A stretch of 64,000 nt of DNA, from NCBI RefSeq assembly GCF_014649795.1, contig NZ_BMTS01000021.1:1-64000 (forward strand), in the 5' to 3' direction. Of the stretch, positions 15,601-35,518 are shown piece after piece; position 1 is the stretch's first letter; every line of letters starts with the position of its first letter. A program made the translations under genes and the position numbers. Under the pieces are notes generated by a model. It did not search any database and was not told the DNA's origin. It worked only from the letters and a program-made list of their open reading frames with translations. The stretch comes from Streptomyces melanogenes (lineage in GTDB: Bacteria; Actinomycetota; Actinomycetes; Streptomycetales; Streptomycetaceae).

Positions 15601-16046
15601 AGCACGGTCAGCCCCTCGGCATGGCCCTGGAGCAGGTCGAAGGAAGCGATGAGCTGCCCGCCGCCGGCTGCCGCCCGCGCGGAGTGCGCCGCGCTGATGA
15701 TCCGGCACAGGTTCATCCAACCCGTCCGGTCGCGGGCCAGCAGCACTATCCGCGGCGCGGACTCGTCGACGAACGCGCCGCCGCGCACCGGCGTGCGGGC
15801 CCGAACGACCGGGGCGGACACGGCCGCGCCCACGGCGGACACGGCAAGGTCCGCCCCGAACAGGGGGCGCAGCCCCTCCCTGGCGCAGGCGTCGGCGTGC
15901 CGCACCGCACCGCCCAGCGTGTCCCGGTCCGTCAGCGCCAGCGCCTCAAAGCCCCGCTCGGCAGCACGTTGCGCCAGGTCAGAGGAGAGGGATCCCCCGT
16001 AGCGGGCACTGTGACCTGAGGCGACATGCAAGTGCACGTAAGGCAT
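12651..16046 (-). CDS. dnaE2: Error-prone DNA polymerase III alpha subunit, DnaE2
   Basis: A 1131-residue C-family polymerase. It has an N-terminal PHP domain (YVHLHVASGHSARYGG, ALTDRDTLGG), the palm with the catalytic pair in LPDIDIDVES (Asp426, Asp428), helix-hairpin-helix and OB-fold regions, and no long tau-binding tail. Length and layout fit DnaE2 rather than the replicative DnaE1 (about 1180). DnaE2 performs translesion synthesis in SOS-induced mutagenesis together with ImuB, encoded immediately downstream and coupled. A LexA-type box lies 76 bases upstream of the start. Confidence 0.9.
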   Translation of the reverse strand: MPYVHLHVASGHSARYGGSLSSDLAQRAAERGFEALALTDRDTLGGAVRHADACAREGLRPLFGADLAVSAVGAAVSAPVVRARTPVRGGAFVDESAPRIVLLARDRTGWMNLCRIISAAHSARAAAGGGQLIASFDLLQGHAEGLTVLLGPASEPVRALAAGRPDVAARLLAPWREAFGPHLRLEAVHHRRTGTGPGSLRLAARTVGLAREADLLCVLSNAVRYADPGQGPIADVLDADRLLMPVRPGRTDGGERWLKPGADMAVLAEEIARAAGLERGGAAHLLATTARTAEECRLDPAADLGLGRVHFPEERLVGAAPGTAARVLRERCESALRERGYDRTPAMRERLSSELQVISTLGWPTYFLTVAQVVDDTRALGIRVQARGSAAGSLVVHLLGISVAEPVSNGLIMERFLNLRRKSLPDIDIDVESARRIEVYRAVLERFGPERVATVSMPETYRVRHAIRAAGLALGIAPDEVGKIAKSFPHLRARDARTALRELPELRTLAQHAERYGRLWELVEGLDGLHRGVAMHPCGVLLSDDSLLQRTPVLPTATEHLPMSVFDKDDVERMGLLKLDILGVRMQSSMAYAVAEIRRATGRVLDIDDRAQVPLEDPEALQMLREGQSLSVFQLESPGARELAGRLRPETFQDLVTEISLFRPGPVQADMIRPFLEARHGKLRPRYPHPDLEPALKVTYGVVVFNEQVIEVFAVMTRTDLAMGEEARRALSDPARLPALEAWYRERSRQAGYTPAVIDEVWQLLENMGSYGFARSHATAFALATAQSAYLKAHFPAPFYAGVLEHDPGMYPKRLVLGEARRRGVPILPVDVQHSTPHYRVEALADGQLGLRIALADVHGITADEAERIAAGQPYADLGDFHTRARPSLPLAHGLARIGALDSLAHGAHRRELLLQLDELHRTRRQVAMPAQLTLATDAEVVTAAGTGLPAMSEQEQLDAELEVLGMDTSRHLMASHHELLTELGVTWAHQLREVPTGQTVLVAGAKVAIQTPPTRSKRRTIFTSLDDGSPGGVVDLVFFDDTHEHAAHVLFHRWLLVVRGQVQRRGTSISVVGEQAWSLVDLVQAHQRGGPAALRAALSDTAPSPAAPAVSDGDRTPGGRLWHASAGSAG

Positions 16047-16293: not shown

Positions 16294-17325
16294 ATGGACC
16301 TCTGCTTAGCCCTGCTCGCCTGCGGCCTCCTGCTGCGCCAGGCGGACCGCCTCCACCACGCCCACAACCGCCCGCACGCCGCCCCGGCCCGCGAGCTGCT
16401 CGCCCTCCAGCGCCGCCGCGCCAGCACGCTCACCCCCGTCCTGCTGCTCGCCGGGCAGTGGATACAGATCGCCGGGTGGTGGCTGCTCGCCGGGCACGGC
16501 CCCCTTGCCGCCGCCGTCGCGGCCCTCGCCGTCGCGGTGCACTTCCGCCACCTCCAGGAGGTCAGCCACTTCGCGGTCCACGGCGTCCTCGCCCGCACCC
16601 CGCGCGCCAACCTGCTCCTCGGCGAGGCCGGCGCGCACCTCCCCCTGGCCCTGGCCCCCCTGCCCCTCCGCCGCCGCAGCCACGTCCGCGACCACCACCC
16701 CAACGCCACCATGGCGACCGACCCCAACCTCGACGACCTGCACCGGGCCGGGCTACGACCGGGCGCCACGCGCACCACTGTCGCCTGGGCGCTGATCCAC
16801 CCGCTCACCCCGCGCGGCCTCTACGCCACCGCCACCGCGATCGCCGCCGTGCTGCGCCGCTCCCCCGCCCGCGCCGCCGCCCTGGCCGCCACCGCGACCC
16901 TGGCCGTCCTCATCGGCGGCATCCCCGCCCTGATCTGGGGCCTGCTCCTGCCCCGCCTGCTGCTCTACCCGCAACTCGCCTGGATGTCGCTGATCAACGA
17001 GCACACCTGGTTCGACCCCGAGACCCGCACCGGATCAGCCGCTGACATCGAGGCCGGGCGCTGCCTGCGCCTCTACCCCCGCAACCGCGCCCTCGCCGCG
17101 ATCGCCGCCACCACCTGGCTCCCCTACGGCGACCTCCACCACTACGCCCACTCCGCCCACCCCGGCCTGCGCTGGAACTACCTGCGCGCCGCGGAACGCC
17201 ACCTCCCCCCGCCCCATTTCACGCCTGCCGGCCTCCTGCTCGGCTCCCCGTCCGTGATCCGCCGCCACCACCAGGCCCTCACCGCCAGCCCGGCCCGCAT
17301 CGGCCAACCGGCCCCCACCGCCTAG
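16294..17325 (+). CDS. Membrane fatty acid desaturase-like protein
   Basis: A 343-residue integral membrane protein of the di-iron fatty acid desaturase/hydroxylase superfamily. Three histidine boxes are visible: HFRHLQEVSHFAVHG, SHVRDHHPN and LHHYAHSAHP, plus NEHTWF. Hydrophobic helices lie at about residues 48-65, 70-85, 188-225 and 265-280. The substrate could be an acyl chain or another lipid or peptide aliphatic group. The start codon has no clear ribosome binding site, so the exact N-terminus is uncertain. A strong terminator follows. Confidence 0.8.
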   Translation: MDLCLALLACGLLLRQADRLHHAHNRPHAAPARELLALQRRRASTLTPVLLLAGQWIQIAGWWLLAGHGPLAAAVAALAVAVHFRHLQEVSHFAVHGVLARTPRANLLLGEAGAHLPLALAPLPLRRRSHVRDHHPNATMATDPNLDDLHRAGLRPGATRTTVAWALIHPLTPRGLYATATAIAAVLRRSPARAAALAATATLAVLIGGIPALIWGLLLPRLLLYPQLAWMSLINEHTWFDPETRTGSAADIEAGRCLRLYPRNRALAAIAATTWLPYGDLHHYAHSAHPGLRWNYLRAAERHLPPPHFTPAGLLLGSPSVIRRHHQALTASPARIGQPAPTA

Positions 17326-19328: not shown

Positions 19329-19586
19329 TCAGACGATCACCCGGGTCACGGTCACGGTCGGCGGTGTGATGCCCGGCGCGTCCGAGACGCTGTAGCGCAC
19401 CGCGGCCGTGCCGACCAGGGCCACCCGGTCCCAGTGCCCGCCGCCCATCGGCCGCTCCAGCGACATGCCGCCGTACGGATCGGCCAGGGCCGCCTCGATG
19501 GCCTCCCGCAGGGCCTCACCCTTGCCCAGCGCGGCCAGGTCCTCCACGGCCTCCGGCGCGTAGACGATGCGGTACGGACGGCTCAC
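19329..19586 (-). CDS. ParE/RelE-like toxin candidate
   Basis: An 85-residue protein (starts VSRPYRIVYAPEAVEDL) with the layout of the ParE/RelE toxin fold: an N-terminal strand, a helical pair (AVEDLAALGKGEALREAIEAALADPYGG), then strands with the WDRVALVGTAAVRYSVSD core. GTG 19586 overlaps the upstream stop by GTGA, typical of toxin-antitoxin pairs. The usual C-terminal catalytic residues cannot be assigned with certainty, so activity is uncertain. Confidence 0.7.
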   Translation of the reverse strand: MSRPYRIVYAPEAVEDLAALGKGEALREAIEAALADPYGGMSLERPMGGGHWDRVALVGTAAVRYSVSDAPGITPPTVTVTRVIV

Positions 19587-19867
19587 AGAGCGCCTTCTGC
19601 GCGCCACTCGTCCCACGTCTTGGCCTGGGATGTCCCGTCGATGACCGCCTGGGTGGCCTGGTCGCCCCGGGGATCGGCCATGTCGGCCGCGATCCCCCGC
19701 CACAGGAGCAGCACGTGGGCGCGCTCCGTCAGCGTGGCCGTGCCCAGGGCCTCGTCGAACTGGGCGCGCACCTCCTCGGGCAGCGCCCCGCGGATCTCGG
19801 CCGCCGTCTGGGGCCGGCCCGGTCCCGGCTCCGCCCGGGGCGGTGTCTCGTTGGGGAGCGCGCTCAT
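19583..19867 (-). CDS. Antitoxin-like protein (DUF6247 type)
   Basis: A 94-residue protein with the pattern PQTAAEIRGALPEEVRAQFDEALG...ERAHVLLLWRGIAADM. This resembles the small actinobacterial family (DUF6247) often found in front of RelE-like genes. GGAGG precedes ATG 19867. It is translationally coupled to the downstream toxin-like gene, so it probably neutralises that toxin and may repress the pair. Confidence 0.65.
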   Translation of the reverse strand: MSALPNETPPRAEPGPGRPQTAAEIRGALPEEVRAQFDEALGTATLTERAHVLLLWRGIAADMADPRGDQATQAVIDGTSQAKTWDEWRAEGAL

Positions 19868-19946: not shown

Positions 19947-19987
19947 CAGAGCCACCGTCCCGGTTTCGGCTCGGGGCGGTGGCTCTG
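19947..19987 (-). terminator. Terminator after the methyltransferase gene
   Basis: Perfect 11-base arms (CAGAGCCACCG and complement) with a 19-base loop, 58 bases beyond the stop at 20045. It separates the tailoring cluster from the toxin-antitoxin pair. Confidence 0.65.
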
Positions 19988-20044: not shown

Positions 20045-21196
20045 TCAGGCTGGGATGGTTGCCGACCAGCCGCTCCGGTTGAGGTGGATGGCGCCGTCCG
20101 GGTCGACCCGGACGCGTGCCCCGCTGACGGGGAGGTAGCCGTCGATGACGAGCCAGGTACGGATGCGGTCCAGCTCGTCCCACAGCCGCCTGGGGCCGCC
20201 CTGGTGCACGGTCGGTGAGTCCCTTCGACCGGCAGCCGTGGCGCGGGCCCACGAGCCGTCCGCGTGGAGCATGTAGATGGTGCGCCGCCCCTCTTCGTCT
20301 TCGGTCTGGCGGTGGTCGATGCCGGGTGCGAGGAGTTCGAGGGTGGAGCGCAGGTCCCAGGTGTCCGGAACGTACGTCAGCGGGTAACGGCCGGTGGTGA
20401 CGCTCTCGCCCTCGGCGTACTGGGCGGTCTCCCATACTTCCGCCGGGGCCAAGACCGCGTCGTCGTGGTCCTCGCCGTGGCGGGCGCTCATGAACGAGGC
20501 CCCGGTGGCGGCGATACAGCCGGTGGCGGTGCCATCCCCCTTCTTGTCGGCAACGAGGATCAGCCCGGTGCCGCTGATGGTGGTGACCAGCCTCCCGCCA
20601 GGGCGCAGCGCCTCCAGCCAGGAGGGCGGGACGGGCCGCACCGACACGGTGGACACGATGCGGTCGTAGGTGCCGGGCAGTTGCTTCGTGATGTCGCAGA
20701 CGGCGGTGTGCGGGTGCAGTCCGGCCGCGGCGAGCCGGTCGGTTGCGGCCGCGACGAGATAGCCGTCGATGTCGACGCTGGTCACCTGCTCGGCGCCCAG
20801 GCGGTGGCAGGCCAGAGCGGTGCCGTAGCCGCTGCCGCACGTCACCAGAACAGTGCTGTCGTCCGTGATCATCGCGTGGCGGTACATCGTGACGACGAGC
20901 GTGGGCAGCGTGGAGGACGACGTCGGCCACGTCCCGGACGGGACGAAGGCGCCGGGCTCGGCGTGGTCGGCGTGCACGGTCCCCATACGGGTCACGAGCG
21001 TCTCGTCGCTGTAAGCGGTGCGCAGCCACCTGTCGGCATCGGCCGCACCGTCCCGCACGATCCGCCCCCCTTCGGCCCGCTCCCACCAGCGCGGTACGAA
21101 CAGGTGCCGGGGTGTGGTGGCGACCGGCTCGTACCAGCGGGAGGAGGGATGGATGGTGTCGGCGGCGAGGCGGCGTGCGTGAGGTTCCCAGTCCAT
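20045..21196 (-). CDS. PCMT-like SAM-dependent methyltransferase
   Basis: A 383-residue protein. The N-terminal two thirds resemble protein-L-isoaspartate O-methyltransferase: MITDDSTVLVTCGSGYGTALACHRLG is motif I, VTSVDID the acidic loop, and YDRIVSTVSVRPVPPSWLEALRPGGRLVTTI the later motifs. A C-terminal domain of about 100 residues carries the WARA, LWDELD and GYLPVSGARVRVDPDG segments. PCMT relatives with such extensions occur in actinobacterial peptide-maturation loci (for example methyltransferases of the FxLD and ATP-grasp systems). AGGAG precedes ATG 21196. It follows the radical SAM gene by 17 bases and is surely co-transcribed. Confidence 0.8.
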   Translation of the reverse strand: MDWEPHARRLAADTIHPSSRWYEPVATTPRHLFVPRWWERAEGGRIVRDGAADADRWLRTAYSDETLVTRMGTVHADHAEPGAFVPSGTWPTSSSTLPTLVVTMYRHAMITDDSTVLVTCGSGYGTALACHRLGAEQVTSVDIDGYLVAAATDRLAAAGLHPHTAVCDITKQLPGTYDRIVSTVSVRPVPPSWLEALRPGGRLVTTISGTGLILVADKKGDGTATGCIAATGASFMSARHGEDHDDAVLAPAEVWETAQYAEGESVTTGRYPLTYVPDTWDLRSTLELLAPGIDHRQTEDEEGRRTIYMLHADGSWARATAAGRRDSPTVHQGGPRRLWDELDRIRTWLVIDGYLPVSGARVRVDPDGAIHLNRSGWSATIPA

Positions 21197-21213
21197 GCGC
21201 GTGGCTCCTGTTC

Positions 21214-22125
21214 TCAGTCTTCCGCCGGGCCGCAGGGACCGCCGCCGGTGGCCGGGTCGCACTTCGTGTCGTTGTTGGGTGAGCAGTCCGGAGGGCACAC
21301 GCCCGTCACGCCAGGAGACGGCATGCACGAGTCCTCGTCGGGGGTGCAGCCGCGCCCGTGCCGCGTGGGGATCAGCTCCTTCACCCGGGCCCACCTTTCG
21401 CCCGCGAAAATCGCGGCCAGGCCCTCATCCTGCACCCGCCCGGCGGGCAGGAAACGCCCCAGAACACACGGTGTTACCGAGCCGTCCGGCATGACCGCCG
21501 CCGTACGGTGGGCGCAGTTCCCGCACAGCGCGGACGCGGACGGCAGGGTGCCGCCTGCGGCGTTGCCGACACGGCGGACCCTGTCAATGTGCACGTTCGT
21601 GATGCCGAGCGAAGCGAGATCCTCGCGGGCCTGCACGGTTCGCTGACCGTCCAGCACGTCAACGATGCCCACCCGCACGGGGATGCCCCGGCGGCGGGCC
21701 TCGATCAGGTTCGCCCGGGTCGCGGCGTGCGAGCCGTCTCGATCGGTGACGGCGTCGTGCCCGTCGTCCGTGTCCGCGTAATACGACGTCGCCAGACTCA
21801 CCCCGGCCCGCGAGAACAGCGCCCAGTGCGCGAGACGAACCTTGTACAGGTTGGAGTACACCTCCACCCGCAGGCCCAGGCTCAGGGCGTGCTCGACCAG
21901 CTCGGCGAAGCCGGGGTGCAGGGTCGGCTCACCGCCGATCAACTGAACGTCTGTGACGCCGAGCGCGGCGGCCTCGCTCATCACCCGGCGCCAGTCGTCG
22001 ACGGTCATCGTGCCGTGGCCCCCGGTCGGACCAGCCTCGGCGTAGCAGTGAGAGCCGCAGGTGAGTTGGCAGCGCTGGGTGATCTCCAGCTCAAGGAACG
22101 CGGGTGCTTCCGGTGCGATGGTCAC
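21214..22125 (-). CDS. Radical SAM enzyme with SPASM-like C-terminus
   Basis: About 303 residues from GTG 22125, chosen for AAGGGAAA in front. The cluster motif near the start is CQLTCGSHC (Cys19, Cys23, Cys27), a CX3CX3C spacing rather than the usual CX3CX2C. LIGGEPTLHP is the GGE SAM-binding motif. The C-terminal 110 residues carry at least eight cysteines (CGNC, PCVLG, GCTPDEDSC, CPPDC, KC, PC), as expected for SPASM/Twitch auxiliary iron-sulfur clusters. Such enzymes usually modify peptides. No precursor peptide is evident nearby, so the substrate is unknown. Confidence 0.82.
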   Translation of the reverse strand: MTIAPEAPAFLELEITQRCQLTCGSHCYAEAGPTGGHGTMTVDDWRRVMSEAAALGVTDVQLIGGEPTLHPGFAELVEHALSLGLRVEVYSNLYKVRLAHWALFSRAGVSLATSYYADTDDGHDAVTDRDGSHAATRANLIEARRRGIPVRVGIVDVLDGQRTVQAREDLASLGITNVHIDRVRRVGNAAGGTLPSASALCGNCAHRTAAVMPDGSVTPCVLGRFLPAGRVQDEGLAAIFAGERWARVKELIPTRHGRGCTPDEDSCMPSPGVTGVCPPDCSPNNDTKCDPATGGGPCGPAED

Positions 22126-22180
22126 GATCGTTTCCCTTCGCTTTGGTGGTGCCACGGTGCCCGGCCCGAACCCTGCCCGG

Positions 22181-22209
22181 CGGGTTCTCTCCAAATTGGA
22201 GAGAACCCG
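22181..22209 (-). terminator. Palindromic hairpin ahead of radical SAM gene
   Basis: A 29-base perfect palindrome of 14-base arms with a single central base, between the HPr-kinase-like gene and the radical SAM gene. It may attenuate or terminate transcription from the upstream three genes, so the last two genes could be expressed separately. Confidence 0.6.
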
Positions 22210-22263
22210 GGGCGGGGCGTGCCTGGAAGGCCGGGGATACCAGGCCCACCCCGTCCCTTGGGG

Positions 22264-23376
22264 TCAGGCCGTCACAGTGGCGAGGAGCGCCGTGTTCGCG
22301 GCGGCGTCGTGCCCGAGCTGGAGGGTGTGGCGGGGAAGCCGGTGGAGAACGTCGGCGACGTGCTCGTGCGCGGCGGTGCCGGTGGAGGGGGCGAGGCCGA
22401 ACACGTCGGGGTACCGGTCCTCGGTCTCGGCGGTGAAGAAGTCGTCGTCGCCGAGCCGCTGGTCGACGTCGAGGACGGCCGGTGCGGTGTCGGCCCCCAC
22501 TGTGGGGAACAGCAACCGCGCGGCCCGGCCCTCGGTGGCCAGGCTCAGCCCAAGCCAGTCGGCGAGCTGGTCCGGGAAGAACTGCGGCTTCAACTCCTTC
22601 CCCGCCTTGTTACGGATCGGGGTGCGGGAGCTGGTGCGGAGCGCGTCGGTGACCAGCGGGTCCTGCGTGGGGTGCAGTTCCTCGCCGTCCTTCACGCGGG
22701 CGGCGACCGGCTCGTACAGGTCGAGCGCGTCGAGGAGGCCGAGCCCGATCGCGGCCGCCGACGGCCACGGCAGAACGCGCACCCCGTCGCCGTCGGGGCG
22801 GACGAACACCCGGTCGTTCGCCAGGAGCTTCCACCCCTTCCTGGCGAGGAGCAGTGCGCAGGTGGTCTTGCCCGCACCCTTCGGCCCGAACGTCAGCACC
22901 GCCTGGCCGGTCGAGTCGGTGACGGCCGAGGCGTGCAGGATCGTCCACCCCGCCGCGAGTAGCTGCCCGCGCACCATCTCGCGGGCAAGGCGGGCAGCGG
23001 CGAGGGCCACCATGGTCTCCTCCGCGCCCGAGATCCGCAGCCCTCCCCCGGGCACATACCGGTAGGCAAGCTGGTCAGCGGGCTGCGCCGCCAGCACCAC
23101 CCGGCCCGGGGTGCGGCGGTAGACCATCAAGCTGTTCGCGTACACGGTGTCCTGGTGCTGGTACTCGACGATGTCCTGCGCCACCGAAGCCGTGTCCGGG
23201 CCGTCGACGTCGGCCTCCACCAGCGACCCTGTGTACGGGGGCTTGGGGGTGGTGGCGTTCCACCACGGGCCGAAGTACCGGCGCGACCAGGCGGTCACCG
23301 ACTCGCTGTAGGAGGTGACGGTCACGTCGTGGATGTCGGTCTGGATACGGGTGGCGTACTGCTCCGGTGTGGTCAT
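22264..23376 (-). CDS. HPr kinase-like P-loop protein
   Basis: A 370-residue protein whose second half has an HPr-kinase/PEPCK-type nucleotide site: ILHASAVTD followed by the P-loop FGPKGAGKTT (about 164-172), then LLANDRVFV and a distal acidic region. Homologues in peptide and antibiotic loci act as kinases or NTPases of unknown substrate. The N-terminal 130 residues are unassigned. The start overlaps the dehydrogenase stop by ATGA. Confidence 0.78.
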   Translation of the reverse strand: MTTPEQYATRIQTDIHDVTVTSYSESVTAWSRRYFGPWWNATTPKPPYTGSLVEADVDGPDTASVAQDIVEYQHQDTVYANSLMVYRRTPGRVVLAAQPADQLAYRYVPGGGLRISGAEETMVALAAARLAREMVRGQLLAAGWTILHASAVTDSTGQAVLTFGPKGAGKTTCALLLARKGWKLLANDRVFVRPDGDGVRVLPWPSAAAIGLGLLDALDLYEPVAARVKDGEELHPTQDPLVTDALRTSSRTPIRNKAGKELKPQFFPDQLADWLGLSLATEGRAARLLFPTVGADTAPAVLDVDQRLGDDDFFTAETEDRYPDVFGLAPSTGTAAHEHVADVLHRLPRHTLQLGHDAAANTALLATVTA

Positions 23377-24269
23377 ACGACGGTTTCCTTTCGGATACTC
23401 GGGATGGCCTCGTAGGCGGTGGTGAGCTTGGTACGGGCGGCCGTGAGAGCGGCTTGTTCATCGGGGCTGAGGCGGGGCAGGGCGATGGTGGGGTGCCCGG
23501 CGGTGAGCCGGACCGGCACTCCCAGCCACGCCCCCTCGTGGTGGGCGGACAGTTCGAGGACGCCGTCGACCAGGCCGAGGGTGTGGCGCAGCGCCGCGAG
23601 GACCGCGCCGGCCGGACCGCACCGGGTGCGCCCGATCCCGGCGTTGATGACCGTCGGGCGCCTCGCGGCCTCGCGCCGGATGCCAGGCGGTACGGCGGTC
23701 AGGGGGCGGCCGTTGACGGTCGTGCCGGTGATGACCGCGTCTTCGCCGTGCTCGCCGATCACCCGGGCCTGCACCGACCCGAGCGGCAGGCCGAGCCGGT
23801 TGGCGAGGGCGATGCGGTAGCGGGCGGTGTCGGTGTGCGAGCCGATCCCGAACACCCGGACAGCCCCCGAGGCTTCGGCGAACAGGCGGGTCATGATGTC
23901 CACGGGGTTGGTCACCACGATCACCACTCCGGTATAGCCCTCCAGCTCCCTACCCAAGGCGGTGATGACGGGGGCGTTCGCGGCCAGGCCCGCCATGCGC
24001 ACGTCGTTGGTGGCGGTGTTCGTGAACCTGGCCCTGGGGCACACCACCAGCGCCTCACAAGCGGCGAGGTCCGCCGCGTCGGCCGTCGGCTGCACTCGTA
24101 CGTGGGAGCCGGTGACGGCCGCCATGTCCTCCAGATCGCACGCCAAGCCCACCGCAGACTCCTCGGTGCGCGAGGTGACGGTGATCTGGGTGCACCAGCC
24201 GGTGGTGACCAGGAGCGCCCCGATCGTCTGGCCGACTGCCCCGGCCCCCACGATCCCAACGCCAGTCAT
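23373..24269 (-). CDS. Lactate/malate dehydrogenase-like oxidoreductase
   Basis: A 298-residue protein of the LDH/MDH fold: Rossmann motif VGIVGAGAVGQTIG at the N-terminus, the VTNPVDIMT segment, and the catalytic histidine loop VIGEHGEDAV. It should reduce or oxidise a 2-hydroxy/2-oxo acid with NAD(H). It overlaps both neighbours by ATGA and is therefore tightly bound to the kinase-like genes. A role in making or tailoring a small molecule is more likely than central metabolism. Confidence 0.8.
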   Translation of the reverse strand: MTGVGIVGAGAVGQTIGALLVTTGWCTQITVTSRTEESAVGLACDLEDMAAVTGSHVRVQPTADAADLAACEALVVCPRARFTNTATNDVRMAGLAANAPVITALGRELEGYTGVVIVVTNPVDIMTRLFAEASGAVRVFGIGSHTDTARYRIALANRLGLPLGSVQARVIGEHGEDAVITGTTVNGRPLTAVPPGIRREAARRPTVINAGIGRTRCGPAGAVLAALRHTLGLVDGVLELSAHHEGAWLGVPVRLTAGHPTIALPRLSPDEQAALTAARTKLTTAYEAIPSIRKETVV

Positions 24270-25426
24270 ACGGCCACTGCCTTCGACAGGCGGGCGAGTG
24301 TCGTGGTCCACACGGTGCGCGGATCTTGCCGGGCGACCAGGTCCGCGCTGACCGTGTCCAGCAGCGCCAGCACCATCGGCGCCTTCTGCGTCAGCGTCAC
24401 GGCCTGGACGGGCATGGGCAGCACCACCGGGCACGTCAGGTAGGTGGACAGGATGTTGACCGTGTCCATCGCCCACAGCATCAGCAACTCGCGTAACCAA
24501 GCCGTCCGCTCCAGCTTCGTCAGGGCGGCCGTGGTGTGGCCCACCAAGGAGGCGAGCCCGGCCGTGATGGCGTGCACGGTCGCCGCCGACAGGGGCGCCG
24601 TGAACAGGCCGAGGATCAGGCGGGAGACGAGTTTGGCGTGGTCGGCCTGGCTGCGGCCGCGCGCCATCCCCGGATCGAGGAACGCCGCCTGACCGTCCGG
24701 CCCGTCTGGGAAAACGATGTGCTCCGGTTTCAGGTCGCCGAACACCACCGGCCGTGACGCGGCCGCAGGCGCCAGGCGCAGGCCCTGGAGGCGGGCGACG
24801 ATCGCGCCCAGCACGCCCGTGTGCGCCCCGGCCTGCTCCAGATAGGCCCTGCCCGACAACCCGTTGAACTTCCGCACGAAGGTCGCCGGAATCGACCGCT
24901 CACCGATCGCCACCGCATCGGTGACGCGGGGCGCGATCCGGGCCAGGCCCTCGCCGACCTCCCGCAGCACCCGCGCGCACAGCGCATCGGTGCGGTCCGG
25001 CTCCTTCACCAGCACCTCGGCCAGCGTCGGCCCGACCACGGGCTGGGTGAACAGCACCCCGCCCGTGTACCCGGCCACCAGCGGCGCCCGCAGACCCGCC
25101 ACCGGCAGCAGCCGAAGCTGCTCGGCCTCGCGCGCCAATAAGGTCTGCGGACTGGCGGTGTAGGCGTCCTGGGCGGCCCGCACTGCCGACCACGACCCGC
25201 ACGAGCCGCGCACCACCGACACCAGCGACATCCCCAGCAGCGACACCTTCGCGTACAGCACGGTGCCGTTGACTTCCACCGTGCGCACGTAGCCGGTGAC
25301 CGACGCCGTATGGGGCCCGAGCGCCAGCCCGGCCCCGGGCCACAAGGATTCGGCGGCGTGGCGGATCTGGCCATCGGCGTACGCGAACAGCTCCCTCACC
25401 GGTATCGGGCTCAACATCTGCGGCAC
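24266..25426 (-). CDS. APH-like phosphotransferase/kinase
   Basis: A 386-residue protein of the protein kinase/aminoglycoside phosphotransferase superfamily, recognised by VVFGDLKPEHIVF (catalytic loop; Asp present, the usual His replaced) and AAFLDPG (metal-binding Asp). The N-lobe contains VLYAKVSLLG. GTG 25426 is preceded by GGGAGAGGAG. It is the first gene of the left-reading cluster and overlaps the dehydrogenase start. The substrate could be a sugar, a lipid or a small molecule. Confidence 0.7.
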   Translation of the reverse strand: MPQMLSPIPVRELFAYADGQIRHAAESLWPGAGLALGPHTASVTGYVRTVEVNGTVLYAKVSLLGMSLVSVVRGSCGSWSAVRAAQDAYTASPQTLLAREAEQLRLLPVAGLRAPLVAGYTGGVLFTQPVVGPTLAEVLVKEPDRTDALCARVLREVGEGLARIAPRVTDAVAIGERSIPATFVRKFNGLSGRAYLEQAGAHTGVLGAIVARLQGLRLAPAAASRPVVFGDLKPEHIVFPDGPDGQAAFLDPGMARGRSQADHAKLVSRLILGLFTAPLSAATVHAITAGLASLVGHTTAALTKLERTAWLRELLMLWAMDTVNILSTYLTCPVVLPMPVQAVTLTQKAPMVLALLDTVSADLVARQDPRTVWTTTLARLSKAVAV

Positions 25427-25563
25427 GACTCGCTCCTCTCCCGCGCGTCGGCCCGGCTGGCGCGCGGCTCACGATGCGGCCGCCCTTCAAGATCACATGC
25501 CGTGATCATTAACTCGCTGTGCGTAGCGGCCTGTTGGCAGTGTGGCACTGGACTTCCCACCAT

Positions 25564-25586
25564 GGGAATCCCAAGGCGGGATTCCC
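25564..25586. promoter_or_regulatory. Inverted repeat between tailoring cluster and regulator
   Basis: GGGAATCCC (25564-25572) and GGGATTCCC (25578-25586), nine-base perfect arms with a 5-base spacer; TTCCCACCATGGGAA overlaps on the left. It lies in the divergent promoter region of the kinase-led cluster and the DUF5753 regulator, making it a candidate operator. Confidence 0.5.
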
Positions 25587-25702
25587 TCAGATGAGTTGGT
25601 GTGGCGGCGGGAGGGCATATGCATGAGGTGGGCTCCGAGACCGGCCTTGCTGTGATCGCAGCGGGTGGCCAGACTGACGGCTACTCGGAAGAAGGGCCGC
25701 AG

Positions 25703-26542
25703 ATGACCTCAACTGGACCACGACGACTCCAGCTCGCAGCCGGTCTCCAGAAGCTCCGCGAGCGTTCCGGGCGAACACTCGAAGAGGTCGCCAAGCTCTC
25801 CGGGTACGGCAAGTCAACCGTCGGACGGTACGAGGACTGGCGCAGCCGTGCCAAGCCGGTACCCCGCGCCGTCCGGGCCATCGCGGAAGCCGCCGGCGGC
25901 AGACCGGCCGAGGTCGCCGCTCTGGTGCGGCTCGCCGAGGACATGCCCGAGGGCTGGTGGGTGGGCGCCGCGGTCCCGGAGTGGCTGCACCCGCTGGTGA
26001 GCCTGGAGCATGAAGCCCAGTACGAAAGCGCGTTCGCGCCGTCCGTCGTCCCCGGCCTGCTCCAGACCCGCGACTACGCACTGGCCATCCACCTGGCCGA
26101 GCAGGTCCGCCAACCGCTCGACAAGGTAACCGAACTGGTCGAGGGGCGGATGCGCCGCCAGGAAGTCCTCACCCGCCACTCCCCACTACACCTCTGGGTC
26201 GTCCTCGACCAGGCTGTACTCCGGCGGGAGGTCGGCGACCGCACCGTCATGGCCGCTCAGCTCGACCACCTCATCGAGCAGTCGCAACAGCCGAATATCG
26301 ACATCCAGATCCTGCCGTGGGCAGCGGGCGCCCACGCCGCCGGGCTGGGCCATTTCGTCACCATCGGATCGGATGACGTACTGGGAGCCGTGTACGTGGA
26401 GATGCTCGGCGGCGGGTTCTACATGGACTCGGCCACCGACGTCCGCCGGTACACCGTGGCCATGGACTACCTTCGCAGCCAGGCAGTTGATACCACTGGC
26501 TCCCTGAAGATCTTGGCTGCCGAGCGCAAGGAGTACAGATGA
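25703..26542 (+). CDS. XRE-type regulator with DUF5753 domain
   Basis: A 279-residue protein with an N-terminal Xre helix-turn-helix (LQKLRERSGRTLEEVAKLSGYGKSTVGRYE, about residues 14-43) and the DUF5753 ligand/partner domain (PSVVPGLLQTRDYALAI, HLWVVLDQAVLRREVG, IDIQILPWAAGAH). This is the very common Streptomyces family that pairs with a DUF397 protein. ATG 25703 was preferred to the longer frame because of GAAGGG in front. The stop overlaps the DUF397 start. Confidence 0.88.
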   Translation: MTSTGPRRLQLAAGLQKLRERSGRTLEEVAKLSGYGKSTVGRYEDWRSRAKPVPRAVRAIAEAAGGRPAEVAALVRLAEDMPEGWWVGAAVPEWLHPLVSLEHEAQYESAFAPSVVPGLLQTRDYALAIHLAEQVRQPLDKVTELVEGRMRRQEVLTRHSPLHLWVVLDQAVLRREVGDRTVMAAQLDHLIEQSQQPNIDIQILPWAAGAHAAGLGHFVTIGSDDVLGAVYVEMLGGGFYMDSATDVRRYTVAMDYLRSQAVDTTGSLKILAAERKEYR

Positions 26543-26754
26543 TCACGCACAAGCCGACTGCCGAGGAGCTGGCAGGGGCTGCCTTCTGGAAGTCGTCGTA
26601 CAGCGGCGGCAGCGGCAACGAATGCGTCGAGGTCGCACAAGTACGGTCCTGGGCCTGCGTCCGGGACTCCAAGAATGGGACCGGGCCCGTGGTCCCTGTG
26701 GCGGCGCACGCGTTCGCCGCCCTGGTCACCGCGGTCAGCACAGGCGCCCTGTAG
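26539..26754 (+). CDS. DUF397 protein
   Basis: A 71-residue protein with the family hallmarks AFWKSSYSGGSGNECVEVAQ and VRDSKN. In known systems such proteins antagonise the partner DUF5753 regulator. It overlaps the regulator gene by ATGA and is followed by a terminator. Confidence 0.9.
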   Translation: MITHKPTAEELAGAAFWKSSYSGGSGNECVEVAQVRSWACVRDSKNGTGPVVPVAAHAFAALVTAVSTGAL

Positions 26755-27136: not shown

Positions 27137-29902
27137 TCAGCGTGTATGCCGCTCGCGTACCAGGCCCAGACGCTCGTCCAGGCGCAGGGTGTGGGTAGCG
27201 GTTCGGTAGGCGCTGGCGGCGCCGTTGCTGTCGAGGGGGTGGGGCAGGATGCGCAGCTCGCTGGCGGCGGGGGTCGTGCGCCATTCGGGCGGGGTGCGGG
27301 TGTCGGTGTCGTCGGCGGGGAGGTAGGTGCTCGGGGCCTGGATGGTGAGGCGGATGAGGGCTGCCACGGTCTCGCGGTCGAGGCGCTCCTGGCCCGGGGC
27401 GGGGATCGGGAGTGGGGTGGTGCGGTGGCGGTCGAGGTAGCGGCTTCCGTCGGGCGTGGTGTAGACGGGCAGGATGCGCGCGGCATCGGCGCCCAGGCGT
27501 GTGGTCACGGCGGCGGGGTCGATCTCGCGGTCGGTGAGCGGGTACAGGTCGGTGACATCGCCCGGGGCAGGGATCGCGACGGCGTCGGCCGCGGCGGACT
27601 GGGCCGCCTCGCGGCGGGCGCGCTCGTAGTCGTCGGGCAGTGCCTGGTCGGCGCGCTCGTTGAGATCGGCGTAGACCGTTTCGATCATGTGGGCGACGTC
27701 GCCGGGGACGTCGATGGGCCGGCCCGCGAGGTTGGCGAGAACACCGTGGGTGCGGCGCAGGAGCGACGCATCGTACACAGTGCCCCAGGCGCGTGGCGGC
27801 AGGGTGCCCGCCGGGGCCAGGACGACGAGTCGAGGCTGAGCCGCCCAGGAGGGGCGGGAGCCTCGGGTGCCGAGAATGTGCCGGTGGCCGCGCCCGGCGC
27901 GCTGGAGGAGCTGAGCGAGGGGGGCGAGGTCGCTGATGACGAGGTCGAAGTCCAGGTCGAGGGACTGCTCGGCGATCTGTGTCGTGACGACGATCAGGGG
28001 TTGCTTCGGGCGCATCGCCTTGGGTCCGAGCAGGTTCAGCAGGGTGCAGGTGATCTCCTCGCGCTGCCACACCGGCATGCGGGCATGCAGCAGCAGGACG
28101 CGGGGACGGCGTGTGCCTGCGCGCTGTTCGAGGGTCAGGAACGTCGTCTGGGCGTCGGGCACGGTGTTGCACACCACCAGCACGGCTCCGGGGTCTTCCG
28201 CCGCCTCGTACAGCGGAGCAAGTTGCGCCGACAACCGCCGGAGCCGGCCGTGGGGGTCTGCGGGGTCGTGTCCGTGGCGTGCGGAGATCATATCGACAGT
28301 GAGCTTGCGGGCGCGGGTGCTTTCGATGGTGCGCGAGGCGGTGACCTCGCCGCTGTCCGCATCGGCGAACAGCCACCCGGGGTAGGCGGGGGCGCGGTCA
28401 CTGGGCTCCGTGTGTCCGGCACCGGCGCGGTAGGCGTTCACCAGGCGCTTGGCGAGCGCACCGGACAGGGTTGCCGAGAGCAGGACGACGGGCACCTTCA
28501 AGTGGCCCAGCCACTCCAGCAGCCGGATCGTCAGGGCATGACCGTACGCGTCGTAGGCGTGCGCCTCATCGATGATCAGCGTCTTTCCGGAAAGTCCCAG
28601 CCACCGCAAGGCATTGAACCGCACCGGGAGGGCGGCCATCGCGGCCTGGTCCCAGGTTCCGACGGCCGCCGCGGACATCAGGCCCAGATGCCTCTGCCGC
28701 AGGAAGACATCCGTCGTCGTCGCCACGCAGCCGTCCTCGACGGGCAGATCGCCTCCGTCCCCGCCATAGGCATCGTTGAGCCACGCGAGCCCGTGCAGCA
28801 GTGTCACCGGAGTGTCCTCAAGGGCGTTACGGGCAACGTACGCGCGGACCCGTTCCCACATGGCGTCCGTGGTGGCCATCGTCGGCAGGAGCACGGCCAG
28901 CCCCGGACATCCGGCAGCAACCCCCAGAACACGCGCTGCGAACAGCCCACACTCCGTCTTGCCGTCACCGGTGGGCGCGGTCACCAGCACCATTCCGGCA
29001 CCACCCACCAGCCCAGGAAGCCGCTGAGCGACATCCCGCTGGAGCGGGTACGGATCCGCGATCTGCGGAAACACGTCATCGAAAGCAGCGGCCGACCGCC
29101 AGGCCGGCACCGCCAACTGGGCAGCGGAGACGGCCTTCGGAGCAGCCTGCACGGCCCGGTCGAAGTGCCCCAACCAGTCCGCCTCACCAGCGGCGCGCCA
29201 CTCCCCCTGCCGCGCAAGCACCCACCGGGTCCTGGAGGCCAGCCAGTCCGCCAGCACCACCAAACCGGTCACCATGACGGCAACCCCCGCGGGAGCAACC
29301 CGGCTTGGTGCCGCAGGCCGGCCGCACGCCATGAACAACAGATCCGCCAGAGCATCACGCTGCTCCAACCACCCCGCGGCGGTACCGACACGCGGCTCGG
29401 CCACACACGGATCGGACATGGTCCTACGCTCCAGCATCGGGCCATAGACACCGTGATGTCCCCCGAGGATCTGCCCTACCTGATGCGCCACCACCCGGCC
29501 CGGCCGACCCGACAGCCCGTACCCGAAACGGGCCAGCAGAGACGGGACCGTCAGATGCGAAACCCTCTCATGCCGAATCGCTCCCTCATGCATCCACCCT
29601 GCCGGAGCCGCGAAAGCAGAACTCTCAAGAAACTCAGGACACGGCCCTGAAACCTGGCCCTGGAACGACGGGCAGCACTTGCCGATATCGTGCAACCCCG
29701 CCCACAACGCCACCATCCCGCGCGCAGCCGAAACCTCAACGCCGAAGGCATCAGCAATCCGATGGCGCTGCCGCCCCGTCAGAAGGGCGTCCCACAACTC
29801 CCCTGCAAAAGCAGCAGTGTCCAAGAGGTGACACGCCAACGGATACGGAAATCGAAGACCACCGGCTTTCCCCCAGACGAGCGAAATAACCTTGCCGCGC
29901 AT
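27137..29902 (-). CDS. cas3: Type I-E CRISPR helicase-nuclease Cas3
   Basis: A 921-residue protein. The N-terminal HD nuclease has LACHLLDT (His25), GLHDIGKC (His71-Asp72) and GGHHG (149-150). The helicase has a P-loop TAPTGDGKTE (308-317), IIDEAH (443-448), LLSATLS and the TQIAEQSLDLDFD...LLQRAGRGHRH region. ATG 29902 sits behind an excellent AAAGGAGGT. Cas3 unwinds and degrades DNA bound by Cascade. Here it is separated from the Cascade genes by the CRISPR array, whereas cas3 normally lies upstream of cse1. Confidence 0.93.
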   Translation of the reverse strand: MRGKVISLVWGKAGGLRFPYPLACHLLDTAAFAGELWDALLTGRQRHRIADAFGVEVSAARGMVALWAGLHDIGKCCPSFQGQVSGPCPEFLESSAFAAPAGWMHEGAIRHERVSHLTVPSLLARFGYGLSGRPGRVVAHQVGQILGGHHGVYGPMLERRTMSDPCVAEPRVGTAAGWLEQRDALADLLFMACGRPAAPSRVAPAGVAVMVTGLVVLADWLASRTRWVLARQGEWRAAGEADWLGHFDRAVQAAPKAVSAAQLAVPAWRSAAAFDDVFPQIADPYPLQRDVAQRLPGLVGGAGMVLVTAPTGDGKTECGLFAARVLGVAAGCPGLAVLLPTMATTDAMWERVRAYVARNALEDTPVTLLHGLAWLNDAYGGDGGDLPVEDGCVATTTDVFLRQRHLGLMSAAAVGTWDQAAMAALPVRFNALRWLGLSGKTLIIDEAHAYDAYGHALTIRLLEWLGHLKVPVVLLSATLSGALAKRLVNAYRAGAGHTEPSDRAPAYPGWLFADADSGEVTASRTIESTRARKLTVDMISARHGHDPADPHGRLRRLSAQLAPLYEAAEDPGAVLVVCNTVPDAQTTFLTLEQRAGTRRPRVLLLHARMPVWQREEITCTLLNLLGPKAMRPKQPLIVVTTQIAEQSLDLDFDLVISDLAPLAQLLQRAGRGHRHILGTRGSRPSWAAQPRLVVLAPAGTLPPRAWGTVYDASLLRRTHGVLANLAGRPIDVPGDVAHMIETVYADLNERADQALPDDYERARREAAQSAAADAVAIPAPGDVTDLYPLTDREIDPAAVTTRLGADAARILPVYTTPDGSRYLDRHRTTPLPIPAPGQERLDRETVAALIRLTIQAPSTYLPADDTDTRTPPEWRTTPAASELRILPHPLDSNGAASAYRTATHTLRLDERLGLVRERHTR

Positions 29903-30009
29903 CGAACCTCCTTTGGCGAAACAGAAATAGAGAACAGACAGACTTGCCGCACCGCCCGCGACAACCTGCACAGGAACGAAGCAGAGGATCGACGAGCAGG
30001 TCACGAAAC

Positions 30010-32167
30010 ACCGGACACCCGCGGGCGCGGGCTGGACAAGTACCACTACCGGTTCGTGTCCCCCCGCGTCGTCGGACACCCGCAGGCGCAGGCTGGACGG
30101 CTACAGCACCGGGGCCCCGACGAAGGAGACCGTCGGACACCCGCGGGCGCGGGCTAGACGTTATGGCTTCCCAGACCCGGAGCCCCTGGTCCGTCGGACA
30201 CCCGCGGGAGCGGGCTGGACAGGCGTTCGGCTGCGTGGATCTCTTCAAGGATCGTCGGACACCCGCAGGCGCAGGCTGGACAGCACCCCGGCCACCACCG
30301 ACCACTGGGTCCGCGTCGGACACCTGCGGGCGCAGGCTGGACTCCGGCGAGGGATCTGCCCGCCCCGTCCGCATCGTCGGACACCCGCAGGCGCGGGCTG
30401 GATCACGTCTCCCTTTGAGCCGATCACGCTGGAGGCGTCGGACACCCGCAGGCGCGGGCTGGATTCCAACGCGATCACCGCCACCGGCGACGTCGACGTC
30501 GGACACCCGCAGGCGCGGGCTGGATGTGTCCGGGACCCGGCCGGACAGCGCCCACATCGTCGGACACCCGCAGGCGCGGGCTGGACTCGCCTTCCTCGCC
30601 GTAGGCGTAGGTCAAGATCGTCGGACACCCGCAGGCGCGGGCTGGATATCTGGAAGTCCACGGTGAAGGTCTGCGATCACGTCGGACACCCGCAGGCGCG
30701 GGCTGGATGCCGTCCCCGAGTCGGGCCGGTTCCTGGGGATCGTCGGACACTCGCAGGCGCGGGCTGGATGGACCGAAGGATGGCGTTCTGATGGCGTTCC
30801 CCGTCGGACACCCGCAGGCGCGGGCTGGAGGGGTTGTCGCCGATCGGCCCCTGTGCGGAGGCGGTCGGACACCCGCAGGCGCGGGCTGGACGCCGGGGCC
30901 GGGCCGCCGGTGAGTACGACCCGTCGGACACCCGCAGGCGGGCTGGACATTGACAAAGGGTGGCGCTCCGCCGGGGGGGGTCGGACACCCGCGGGCGCGG
31001 GCTGGACCGCTGGCGGCGGCCGCCGGTCCCGAAGCTGCTAGTCGGACACCCGCGGGTGCGGGCTGGACGCCGTGCACCACCGGAATGAGCAGCACGGTGG
31101 TCGTCGGACACCTGCGGGTGCGGGCTGGACCGTTGATGTCGGTCATGGTGAACCTCCTCGGCCGTCGGACACCCGCAGGTGCAGGCTGGACTCGCTGTGG
31201 GCCGTGGCGGCCGCTGCCCGGACCGTCGGACACCCGTAGGCGCGGGCTGGACGGACAACTTCTGGCCGTCGTCGCGCGCGTGAGCGTCGGACACCCGCAG
31301 GCGCAGGCTGAACACCGAGGTTTCGCCGCCCCGGGTGGTCGTGGTCGTCGGACACCCGCAGGCGCGGGCTGGACTGGTTGGCCAGCGCGATGGTGTGCTC
31401 GGTCTGCGTCGGACACCCGCGGGCGCAGGCTAAACGGCCAGTCCTCGCTCGCCAAGGCGCTGCAGGTCGTCGGACACCCGCAGGCGCAGGCTGGACGCAC
31501 ACTGCGCCACTGGCGCCGCGCACGACCACGTCGGACACCCGCAGGCGCAGGCTGGACGGACCGCGTCCTTGGCTCGAACGCGGGCGAGCCGTCGGACACC
31601 CGCAGGCGCAGGCTGGACTGTCCCTGAGTGAGCCGAAGCCCCTGGGCGAGCGTCGGACACCCGCAGGCGCAGGCTGGACGGATGGCAGACGGATCATCAG
31701 AGCACGGCTCCCGTCGGACACCCGCAGGCGCAGGCTGGACTCCGGCGAGGGATCTGCCCGCCCCGTCCGCATCGTCGGACACCCGCAGGCGCGGGCTGGA
31801 CTTGACGGCCCGTTGCTCCTGGTCGGCGTAGGCAGTCGAACACCCGCGGGCACGGGCTGGACTCGCAGGTGAAGGTGTGGGCGCCGACCACGATCGTCGG
31901 ACACCCGCAGGCGCGGGCTGGACGCATACAGGGTGGGGAACGCGGACTTCTGCACCGTCGGACACCCGCAGGCGCGGGCTGGATAAGTACGGGCTGAGTT
32001 CTCCCTGGCACAGGAACGTCGGACACCCGCAGGCGCGGGCTGGATGTGGTGAGAGCGATCGTCTGCATCCCGGCCGCCGTCGGACACCCGCAGGCGCGGG
32101 CTGGATGGGATGCTGCGGGCCAAGAGCGGCCGGGTCATCGTCGGACACCCGCAGGCGCGGGCTGGAT
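30010..32167 (-). CRISPR. CRISPR array, 36 repeats and 35 spacers
   Basis: Repeats of 28 bases start every 61 bases from 30010 to 32140. On the top strand they begin GTCGGACACCCGC and end GGGCTGGA plus C or T. Read on the bottom strand they contain CCCGC-GCCT-GCGGG, the stem expected for type I-E crRNA, so the array is transcribed leftward like the cas genes. Spacers are about 33 bases; two near 30892 and 30949 are shorter, and the repeat at 30923 lacks two bases. The repeat at 30010 is degenerate, marking the trailer end next to cas3. Repeat variants are frequent throughout. Confidence 0.97.
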
Positions 32168-32239
32168 GCTTCGTGACCTGGCAGTTCTGGGTGGCTTTAC
32201 TGTTTTGTTATCAAGGTGCGGTCGTCTGGGCGAGGGAAG
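32168..32239 (-). promoter_or_regulatory. CRISPR leader
   Basis: The 72 bases between the cas6e stop and the last repeat are A+T-richer than their surroundings. Read leftward they contain TTGATAACAAAACAGTAAAG. They adjoin the end with the most uniform repeats (31896-32140), as expected for the leader side. The leader is short, so the array may depend partly on the cas operon promoter. Confidence 0.6.
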
Positions 32240-32923
32240 TCAGGCGCGGGTGAGGGGGGCGATGGACAGGAGTCCTGCGCCGTATGCCTTGCTGCGGCCG
32301 ATGCCGTTGGTGATGGCGTCGGTGAGGGCTTGGGGGTTGTGGATGGTGGCGGTGCCTTCGAAGCGGGTCAGCTTCCTGCCGAAGCGGATCGTCTTGTCGG
32401 GTTCTTGTGGGTCGTCCTTTCTGACGGTGATGGCGAGTTGGGGGGCGAGGCGGGTGGTGTCGGGGTTGGGTGTGAGTCCGGCGTCTTCGGCTTGGCGGTG
32501 CCACCAGGCGACGGCTTCTTCGCCGTTGATGTGGACGCGGCGGCCGCGTTGGGGTTGTCCGTTGCTGTCGCACTGCGAGATGGTGCGGGTGGCTACGGCG
32601 TCGATGCGGTAGCGGATGGCGCCGCCTTCCTTGCACCAGGTGAGCAGGGGGGTCAGGTCGCGTTCGTCGGTGGCGTGGGCGTAGCCGATGGGTAGTTGGT
32701 CGAGGTCGAGGGGGGCGGTGGACTGGATCAGCAGGGTGTGGGCGTGCTGTTCGCGTTCGAGGCGGAACAGGACGCCGGCTGCGGTGCGGGTGTCGTGGCC
32801 GAGTTGGTCGGGGATGAGGGCGAGGACGCGGCGGTGCAGGGATTGGGCGTTGCGCAGGTCGCGGCCGGCCTCGGGCGACCACGGGTCGATCTTGATGCGG
32901 GTGAGGTGAGCGGTGGCGGCCAC
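32240..32923 (-). CDS. cas6e: Cas6e, crRNA-processing endoribonuclease
   Basis: A 227-residue RAMP protein that cuts pre-crRNA within the repeats and stays bound to the 3' hairpin. Visible features are an N-terminal LTRIKIDP strand, the LHRRVLALIPD region carrying the likely catalytic histidine, and the glycine-rich loop GIGRSKAYGAGLL near the C-terminus. GTG 32923 follows CAGGAG. It is the last gene of the Cascade operon and lies 72 bases from the array. Confidence 0.92.
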   Translation of the reverse strand: MAATAHLTRIKIDPWSPEAGRDLRNAQSLHRRVLALIPDQLGHDTRTAAGVLFRLEREQHAHTLLIQSTAPLDLDQLPIGYAHATDERDLTPLLTWCKEGGAIRYRIDAVATRTISQCDSNGQPQRGRRVHINGEEAVAWWHRQAEDAGLTPNPDTTRLAPQLAITVRKDDPQEPDKTIRFGRKLTRFEGTATIHNPQALTDAITNGIGRSKAYGAGLLSIAPLTRA

Positions 32924-32950
32924 GGTCGGCGGCTCCTGTCGGGGGGGCGG

Positions 32951-35480: not shown

Positions 35481-35518
35481 GGCGTCCTTTCCACAAGAAG
35501 CAAGAAGGGTGAGCAAGG

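Follow-up and report, generated by a model that had tools for sequence, protein, structure and literature searches.

The stretch examined here, called the window, comprises 64,000 nucleotides of a Streptomyces melanogenes contig (NZ_BMTS01000021.1; genome of origin 9.58 Mb in total), and all window coordinates refer to its full length. We focused on a set of five open reading frames (ORFs) on the minus strand, from 25426 to 20045 (Table 1), which were found by ORF calling and Pfam matches as a preliminary description of the window had listed them. They encode an APH-like kinase, an LDH/MDH-like dehydrogenase, an HPrK-like kinase, a radical S-adenosylmethionine (rSAM) enzyme and a PCMT-type methyltransferase (MT). 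The gene types assigned in that description stood for the rSAM/SPASM, PCMT and LDH proteins, which scored above their Pfam cut-offs, but APH and Hpr_kinase_C fell below theirs, and these two genes are therefore called '-like' and not Pfam members. ATGA overlaps, seen directly in the sequence, link the APH-like to the LDH-like gene and the LDH-like to the HPrK-like gene, while 139 bp separate the HPrK-like gene from the rSAM gene and 17 bp separate the latter from the MT gene. The divergent regulator noted upstream is an XRE/DUF5753 and DUF397 pair by Pfam (25601-26754), and the available part of PMC13097080 describes DUF397-DUF5753 regulators, like the pair in the window, next to graspetide clusters. 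The set had also been placed between two terminator-like hairpins. Two hairpins do exist and one (19947-19987) lies past the MT gene, but the other (22181-22209) lies inside the set, and the gap that holds it divides the genes into 3 + 2, in agreement with the comparative genomics. A scan for hairpins with a T-run returned no terminator, and a promoter scan was likewise without result.

Table 1. Features of the five-gene locus and its flanks, in coordinates of the 64,000-nt window.
Feature	Position	Strand	Details
APH-like kinase	24266..25426	-	386 aa, GTG start; weak Pfam APH, 25-sequence alignment
LDH/MDH-like 2-oxoacid dehydrogenase	23373..24269	-	298 aa; Pfam, 22-sequence alignment, MDH/LDH structures
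HPrK/PEPCK-superfamily P-loop kinase	22264..23376	-	370 aa; 27-sequence alignment, PDB profile, Foldseek
Radical SAM/SPASM-Twitch enzyme	21214..22125	-	303 aa, GTG start; Pfam; SkfB nearest
Candidate fused precursor (rSAM C-terminal tail, residues 258-303)	21217..21354	-	six Cys-x-Pro, disordered in model
PCMT/PAMT-like O-methyltransferase (MT)	20045..21196	-	383 aa; PCMT Pfam, TIGR04188
Divergent XRE/DUF5753 regulator	25601..26542	+	Pfam DUF5753 5.1e-50
DUF397 partner of regulator	26539..26754	+	Pfam DUF397 1.9e-16
14-bp perfect hairpin, gap between triad and rSAM-MT	22181..22209	not assigned	gap RNA fold z -3.98
16-nt hairpin beyond the MT gene	19947..19987	not assigned	

The genome-neighbourhood comparison that had been proposed resolved the five genes as two modules, the APH-like/LDH/HPrK-like triad (module 1) and the rSAM and MT genes (module 2); it also brought out a candidate peptide, fused to the rSAM protein and not encoded by a free ORF. 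The triad was found in the order APH-LDH-HPRK on one strand in 26 of 30 fetched neighbourhoods, mostly without rSAM and MT; one triad gene was not found in L039, L058, L059 and L061, and a few further neighbourhoods have a gene in pieces. Besides the window, rSAM and MT followed the triad in just three of the 30 (L035, L042 and L050; 3/26 of the full triads), a result that does not bear out the single five-gene pathway suggested at first. On the rSAM side, 144 loci with rSAM matches gave 131 that were kept as distinct, each spanning about 3 to 8 kb on either side (shorter at contig ends), and the triad occurs in six of them, that is, in 6/91 of those with an MT. These six side-by-side loci are the window, the three just named and L121 and L126, both from the named collection. 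With 3/30 triad and 6/131 rSAM neighbourhoods shared, one conserved unit of five genes was ruled out. The hairpin between the modules was matched by a 15-nt hairpin in L042, by just a 10-nt palindrome in L035 and by none in L050.

Both modules are scattered. The dehydrogenase was found in 29/394 genomes of the family Streptomycetaceae and the HPrK-like kinase in 27/293 genomes of the order, while at E 1e-40 the rSAM protein was found in 62/394 Streptomycetaceae genomes against 4/396 genomes phylum-wide, all four in the genus of the window; the rSAM family is thus common in Streptomycetaceae and sporadic elsewhere. In a species collection, 380 stretches encode an rSAM relative at E 1e-3, some of those kept being from other actinomycete families. 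The named loci are the best 80 of these 380 stretches; 7 of them had no called rSAM gene, and among the remaining 73 the rSAM gene has the MT gene as its direct successor in 69.

The rSAM protein scored 55.2 bits against Radical_SAM (cut-off 29.5) and 24.7 bits against SPASM (cut-off 21.5), which places it in the superfamily. Its twelve cysteines comprise residues 19, 23 and 27 of the rSAM motif, residues 201, 204 and 220 in the Twitch region, likely an auxiliary-cluster motif, and six in the C-terminal tail. The peptide maturase SkfB was its nearest relative, ranking first by phmmer and by Foldseek. Because the match runs from rSAM residue 8 to SkfB residue 108, the first ~100 residues of SkfB have no counterpart, and no N-terminal domain lies ahead of the rSAM domain. 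This N-terminal region of SkfB is a recognition domain. The NCBIfam SkfB model, an equivalog of sactipeptide maturases (SkfB, AlbA, StsB), gave 69.4 bits against a cut-off of 300, so that by score the protein is not such an equivalog. In an AlphaFold2 model, 146 of the 303 residues reached a per-residue confidence (pLDDT) of 90 or above, and residues 185-192 fell below 50.

All six cysteines of the tail (260, 267, 277, 281, 289 and 298) stand in a Cys-x-Pro (CxP) context, and two candidate aspartimide sites, Asp265-Ser and Asp286-Thr, lie among them. The tail is predicted to be disordered, with pLDDT below 50 and block means of about 30-38. Three or more CxP motifs towards the C-terminus were counted in 123/131 distinct homologues versus 0/902 other proteins of the named loci, and 555 of 568 tail cysteines stand in a CxP context versus 147 of 2335 cysteines in control proteins. 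The CxP motifs at 277 and 298 are invariant in an alignment of 21 sequences, and MT-paired tails hold 3 to 10 cysteines. In 5/130 proteins a stretch of 16 tail residues is repeated in tandem (14-16 positions identical), versus 0/655 shuffled tails. The ratio of non-synonymous to synonymous substitution (dN/dS) of aligned tail codons was 0.297, close to the 0.292 of the domain (341 overlapping pairs), indicating that the tail is under selection.

Six-frame scanning of the window placed the CxP motif in this tail alone, aside from two shadow frames. Across the six frames of the rSAM loci, 22 matches lay outside the rSAM frame and none was convincing as a free CxP precursor: three coincide with rSAM genes that are broken or shifted (L133, L262, L264), and the others resembled shadow frames on inspection by eye. 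Among the 73 named loci, no conserved neighbour of at least 50 aa other than the rSAM gene was seen beside the MT gene, shorter ORFs being scanned for CxP only. Inspection by eye of the 14 largest neighbour families (at least 50 aa) of these loci revealed no protease and no exporter; besides the MT, they include recognised regulators and short proteins without an assignable name. The earlier remark that no precursor is visible may be right as far as free ORFs go, but it overlooked a strong candidate fused to the rSAM C-terminus. In L264 (3410-6885), the rSAM domain is parted from its tail by a transposase gene, IS30-like by eye, and the downstream MT gene is open, a natural break of the fusion.

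The MT scored 39.4 bits against PCMT (Pfam cut-off 20.3). Its best NCBIfam match, TIGR04188 (ATP-grasp peptide maturase system methyltransferase), aligned over residues 7-368 with 254.6 bits, below the cut-off of 380. With this sub-cut-off match and an rSAM protein closest to SkfB, the view that these are genes of the peptide-maturation kind was supported. The protein also has the features by which PAMTs are defined in the available part of PMC10787088, a PCMT domain with an extra C-terminal domain and a length of more than 300 aa (here 383 aa). That part reports 249 rSAM-PAMT pairs, for which a neighbouring precursor or substrate gene was not found, and module 2 probably belongs to the same family as those pairs. 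In L105 (5061-6256), a 33-aa Pro/Asp/Gly-rich ORF past the rSAM-MT pair overlaps a second PCMT-like gene, resembling a type I pamtide/imiditide pair.

Partners other than the MT were also encountered. Among the 131 rSAM loci, 88 have the MT only (86 downstream and 2 near, both of these broken), 26 an APH-like kinase, 11 a member of a 115-aa family and 6 none; three of the 26 also have a distant MT-like gene. The APH-like and 115-aa labels were given for any tblastn match, wherever in the locus it lay, and clustering of genes directly downstream on the same strand gave 12 + 2 APH-like genes and 7 115-aa genes. Three of 11 scanned kinase-like partners matched Pfam APH (best E 2.9e-8), and a second kind of kinase, in L107, scored above the APH cut-off. 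Tail motifs, which were picked after the tails had been inspected, sorted by partner. D[SG]..CxP was present in 74/82 MT-only tails but in 3/17, 0/7 and 0/11 tails of the larger kinase group (APH-2), the smaller kinase group (APH-3) and the 115-aa group, respectively; CxPG[YTF]P was present in 0/82 MT-only versus 16/17 APH-2 tails, and PPQFLP in 11/11 tails of the 115-aa group. Tail type thus largely follows the partner enzyme. In one sister rSAM group (L236, L240-L242, L245-L247, L249, L254, L257, L258) the tail carries a near-constant C(T/A)PPQFLP(M/S)CGPCGPC, and in seven members a protein of the 115-aa type without a Pfam match comes next.

We then compared the putative target of the MT with the distribution of the MT gene. 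A D[SGTN] step was present in 82/84 tails with an MT downstream versus 11/37 others (Fisher 1.3e-15; 10 tails omitted), although here, as in all our Fisher comparisons, the test was post hoc and related rows were treated as independent. Both tails without it, L253 and L255, are accompanied by an APH-like partner as well; in both loci the MT-like gene is a distant one (about 30% identical) and the tail is of the kinase type. This association is consistent with the MT acting on the tail, and is not proof of it.

From these sequence patterns we lean towards the reading that the rSAM enzyme of module 2 carries its own peptide substrate as a fused C-terminal tail, to be modified by the rSAM enzyme and the MT. 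Module 2 would then be a self-contained peptide-modification unit, with the disordered, CxP-rich tail of one to three units as its substrate. The rSAM domain would modify its own tail either in cis or as part of a dimer; by analogy with SkfB, its nearest solved relative, the likeliest guess is that tail cysteines form thioethers. The MT would next methylate the Asp of an Asp-Ser/Gly/Thr step in the modified tail (Asp265 and Asp286 in the window), leading to an aspartimide or isoaspartate. The order of rSAM before MT fits the statement, in the available part of PMC11285071, that a cyclised substrate is required by most PAMTs. With such a tether, neither a leader nor a recognition domain would be needed. 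Release and export of the tail might depend on general enzymes; alternatively, the product might be the modified protein as such.

The tail could instead be a structural or redox element whose cysteines serve as ligands of a metal or of an auxiliary Fe-S cluster, the true substrate being encoded elsewhere, an explanation that we regard as unlikely but worth keeping in mind. The invariance of CxP 277 and 298 would suit such a role, and because only three cysteines (201, 204 and 220) are of the Twitch type, a fourth cluster ligand could come from the tail. However, three-Cys auxiliary clusters of the MoaA type exist, the tail is predicted to be disordered, its cysteine number varies from 3 to 10 in MT-paired proteins, some of which carry tandem copies, and its type largely tracks the partner enzyme.

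Beyond such metal or cluster binding, several observations weigh against a fused substrate. The window motif is CX3CX3C, not the canonical CX3CX2C, and MT-paired rSAM proteins divide into 27 with CX3CX3C (window included), 54 with CX3CX2C and 7 not classed; the spacing is unusual, but its presence in 27 proteins marks it as a trait of the lineage and not a random defect. Motif residues 22-35 are modelled with pLDDT below 50. In L035 (11212-12108), the first motif cysteine is replaced by Tyr while tail and MT are kept. Fewer than three CxP motifs remain in 8/131 homologues, just some of them visibly broken: a fragment (L116), three shifted or interrupted genes (L133, L262, L264) and four short or diverged tails (L115, L138, L182, L270). 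Duplicated tails are few, and four of the five belong to one 7-row clade. The CGPxC motif was present in 6/7 APH-3 tails but also in 8/82 MT-only tails. Finally, there are just 5 partner changes on the tree (one row omitted), and a phylogenetic test of MT against D[SGTN] found 3 independent pairs on starred branches, which is not significant; the triad, moreover, is mostly not near module 2.

Some of these irregularities would be expected if module 2 were a decaying remnant without function: L264 is cut by the transposase gene, L133 looks frameshifted and L035 has lost a motif cysteine. We consider decay highly improbable, given the dN/dS of about 0.29, shared by tail and domain, and the 380 stretches that encode a relative.

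The enzymes of module 1 show conserved catalytic features. The dehydrogenase scored 54.3 bits against Ldh_1_N (cut-off 27) and 23.1 bits against Ldh_1_C (cut-off 22.6), placing it in the LDH/MDH family, and matched no NCBIfam LDH or MDH equivalog. Arg91, Asn121, Asp147, Arg150 and His174, which we take by eye to be the LDH catalytic residues, are invariant in 22 aligned sequences. Ser33-Arg34 follow strand 2, where NAD enzymes have Asp; a Ser-Arg pair in this place marks NADPH preference, which suggests that the enzyme uses NADPH. The HPrK-like protein conserves a Walker A motif (GPKGAGKTT), LLANDR, HPTQ and EDRYPD across 27 aligned sequences. It matched HPrK 1jb1 in a PDB profile search (E 5.9e-5), and its model (pLDDT 93.7) was closest by Foldseek to the phosphoenolpyruvate carboxykinase (PEPCK) 1j3b (E 1.9e-8, TM 0.43), with HprK/P 2qmh at E 5.7e-5. 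HPr kinase proper was rejected as an assignment, the scores being 18.8 versus 33.3 bits for Hpr_kinase_C and 18.3 versus 240 bits for TIGR00679. The APH-like protein gave 16.3 bits against Pfam APH (cut-off 23.2, E 0.0088), and its kinase residues Lys60, Asp231 and Asp251 are invariant in 25 aligned sequences. In L033, L036 and L037 the dehydrogenase and the HPrK-like kinase are fused in one ORF of 659-669 aa, which supports a joint function. The literature searched held no relevant description of the triad and no characterised combination of the five genes, as had been surmised.

We picture module 1 as an independent triad joined to module 2 in a minority of loci, in which an NADPH-type 2-oxoacid reductase and two kinases would make or attach a phosphorylated 2-hydroxyacid; such a reductase-plus-kinase route is our best guess for the triad. 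If the product is a small metabolite or signal, adjacency to rSAM-MT would be coincidental within regulator-controlled cassettes. This is possible, with a chance just short of even, and since it concerns module 1, it can be compatible with a fused-tail substrate in module 2. It agrees with the invariant LDH/MDH catalytic residues, the resemblance of the HPrK-like protein to PEPCK and HPrK, the dehydrogenase-kinase fusions and the unrelated genes that adjoin many triads. By contrast, unlinked genes would not be expected to yield as many as six side-by-side loci along with the lanthipeptide neighbourhood of L038. In L038 (11145-16876), the triad lies directly 5' of a class I lanthipeptide cluster that contains a PCMT-type MT, a 61-aa Cys-containing ORF with FNLD, LanB and LanC.

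Alternatively, all five genes might form one pathway in which the kinases and dehydrogenase act on the tail once rSAM and MT have modified it, phosphorylating it, for instance, or adding a hydroxyacyl cap. Both modules were present in 11 genomes versus 4.6 expected (p 0.002), but with the four side-by-side genomes removed the numbers were 7 versus 3.7 (p 0.06, not significant), and a link between the modules is therefore possible and not established. The side-by-side loci all fall in one rSAM clade (6/29 versus 0/101 rows, post hoc and with related rows), and 4 changes on the HPRK tree and 5 on the rSAM tree suggest that the adjacency arose by more than one joining, or by several losses. The triad lies 5' of PCMT-type MT genes in 7/15 members of one HPRK clade versus 0/17 of the other, a count restricted to MT genes downstream of the triad; in L059, a member of the second clade, a PCMT-like gene stands upstream. 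The seven are the six rSAM-MT loci and L038, and a link of the triad to peptide maturation is possible on this ground. An APH-like kinase as partner in sister rSAM groups would also suit a single pathway. Against it, the other module is missing from 27/30 triad neighbourhoods and 125/131 rSAM loci, a hairpin divides the modules in the window, and triad-linked loci have no distinguishing tail feature by eye. Weighing these, we find a single pathway rather unlikely.

On a broader scale, the data could reflect an actinobacterial peptide class that dispenses with precursor genes because each rSAM maturase bears its CxP core, sometimes in several copies, as a C-terminal tail, and in which a switch of partner (PAMT, APH-like kinases, 115-aa protein) from one lineage to another goes along with a switch of tail type, a generalisation to which we give an even chance. 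If the tail is a substrate, it would supply the missing substrate of the 249 published rSAM-PAMT pairs, as these are presented in the available part of PMC10787088; two proteins would suffice for an assay, and many peptide-modifying systems missed by precursor-finding tools could be read from the rSAM sequence.

Elsewhere in the window, Pfam matches on the minus strand at 27137-35977 (cas3, CRISPR_assoc, Cas5, CT1975, Cse2 and a piece of Cse1) name a Type I-E CRISPR-Cas system, with a repeat array of 61-nt period at ~30.0-32.2 kb. An overlapping small pair at 19329-19867 encodes a DUF6247-like protein (22.1 bits, cut-off 26.9) and an 85-aa protein without a Pfam match that is RelE-like by eye, possibly a toxin-antitoxin pair. 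A fatty acid desaturase (Pfam) lies at 16294-17325; the large neighbouring gene at 12651-16046 is error-prone DNA polymerase-like by eye.

Among known systems, HPr kinase/phosphorylase and PEPCK share the P-loop superfamily, the Walker A motif and the fold with the HPrK-like kinase, which differs in scoring far under the Pfam and NCBIfam cut-offs and in its own motifs HPTQ and EDRYPD. Pamtides/imiditides and the PAMT-bearing graspetides, lanthipeptides and lasso peptides resemble module 2 in MT type and in a conserved Asp before a small residue of the putative substrate. Unlike these ribosomally made peptides, module 2 has an rSAM enzyme, no free precursor was found among neighbours of at least 50 aa or shorter ORFs with CxP motifs, and no ATP-grasp, lanthionine or lasso enzyme was seen among the scanned neighbours. 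Graspetide group 13 was considered and dropped, there being no ATP-grasp enzyme or precursor among the eight genes at 19.5-26.8 kb or the further genes scanned. An rSAM maturase with a fused core was not found in the open literature, subscription papers being mostly outside the scope of the search, and the main text of a 2026 review (PMC13001092) contains neither 'radical' nor 'rSAM'. The SPASM maturases of the SkfB/sactipeptide type are nearest in sequence and fold and likewise have a Cys-containing substrate, whereas the rSAM enzyme of module 2 is without the ~100 N-terminal residues and its proposed substrate is fused C-terminally and built of CxP repeats.

The rSAM-PAMT pairs in the available part of PMC10787088 are alike in pairing an rSAM gene with a PAMT-type MT gene; no substrate is named in that part, whereas here a fused tail is proposed and sister groups with other partners are added. 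Borosins of the OphMA type follow the same logic, their core peptide being fused to its own methyltransferase according to the available part of PMC11285071. In module 2, by contrast, the proposed modifying enzyme is an rSAM protein, and the tail, a putative core, is fused to it in 123/131 homologues. The borosin enzyme is an N-methyltransferase of a fold unrelated to rSAM.

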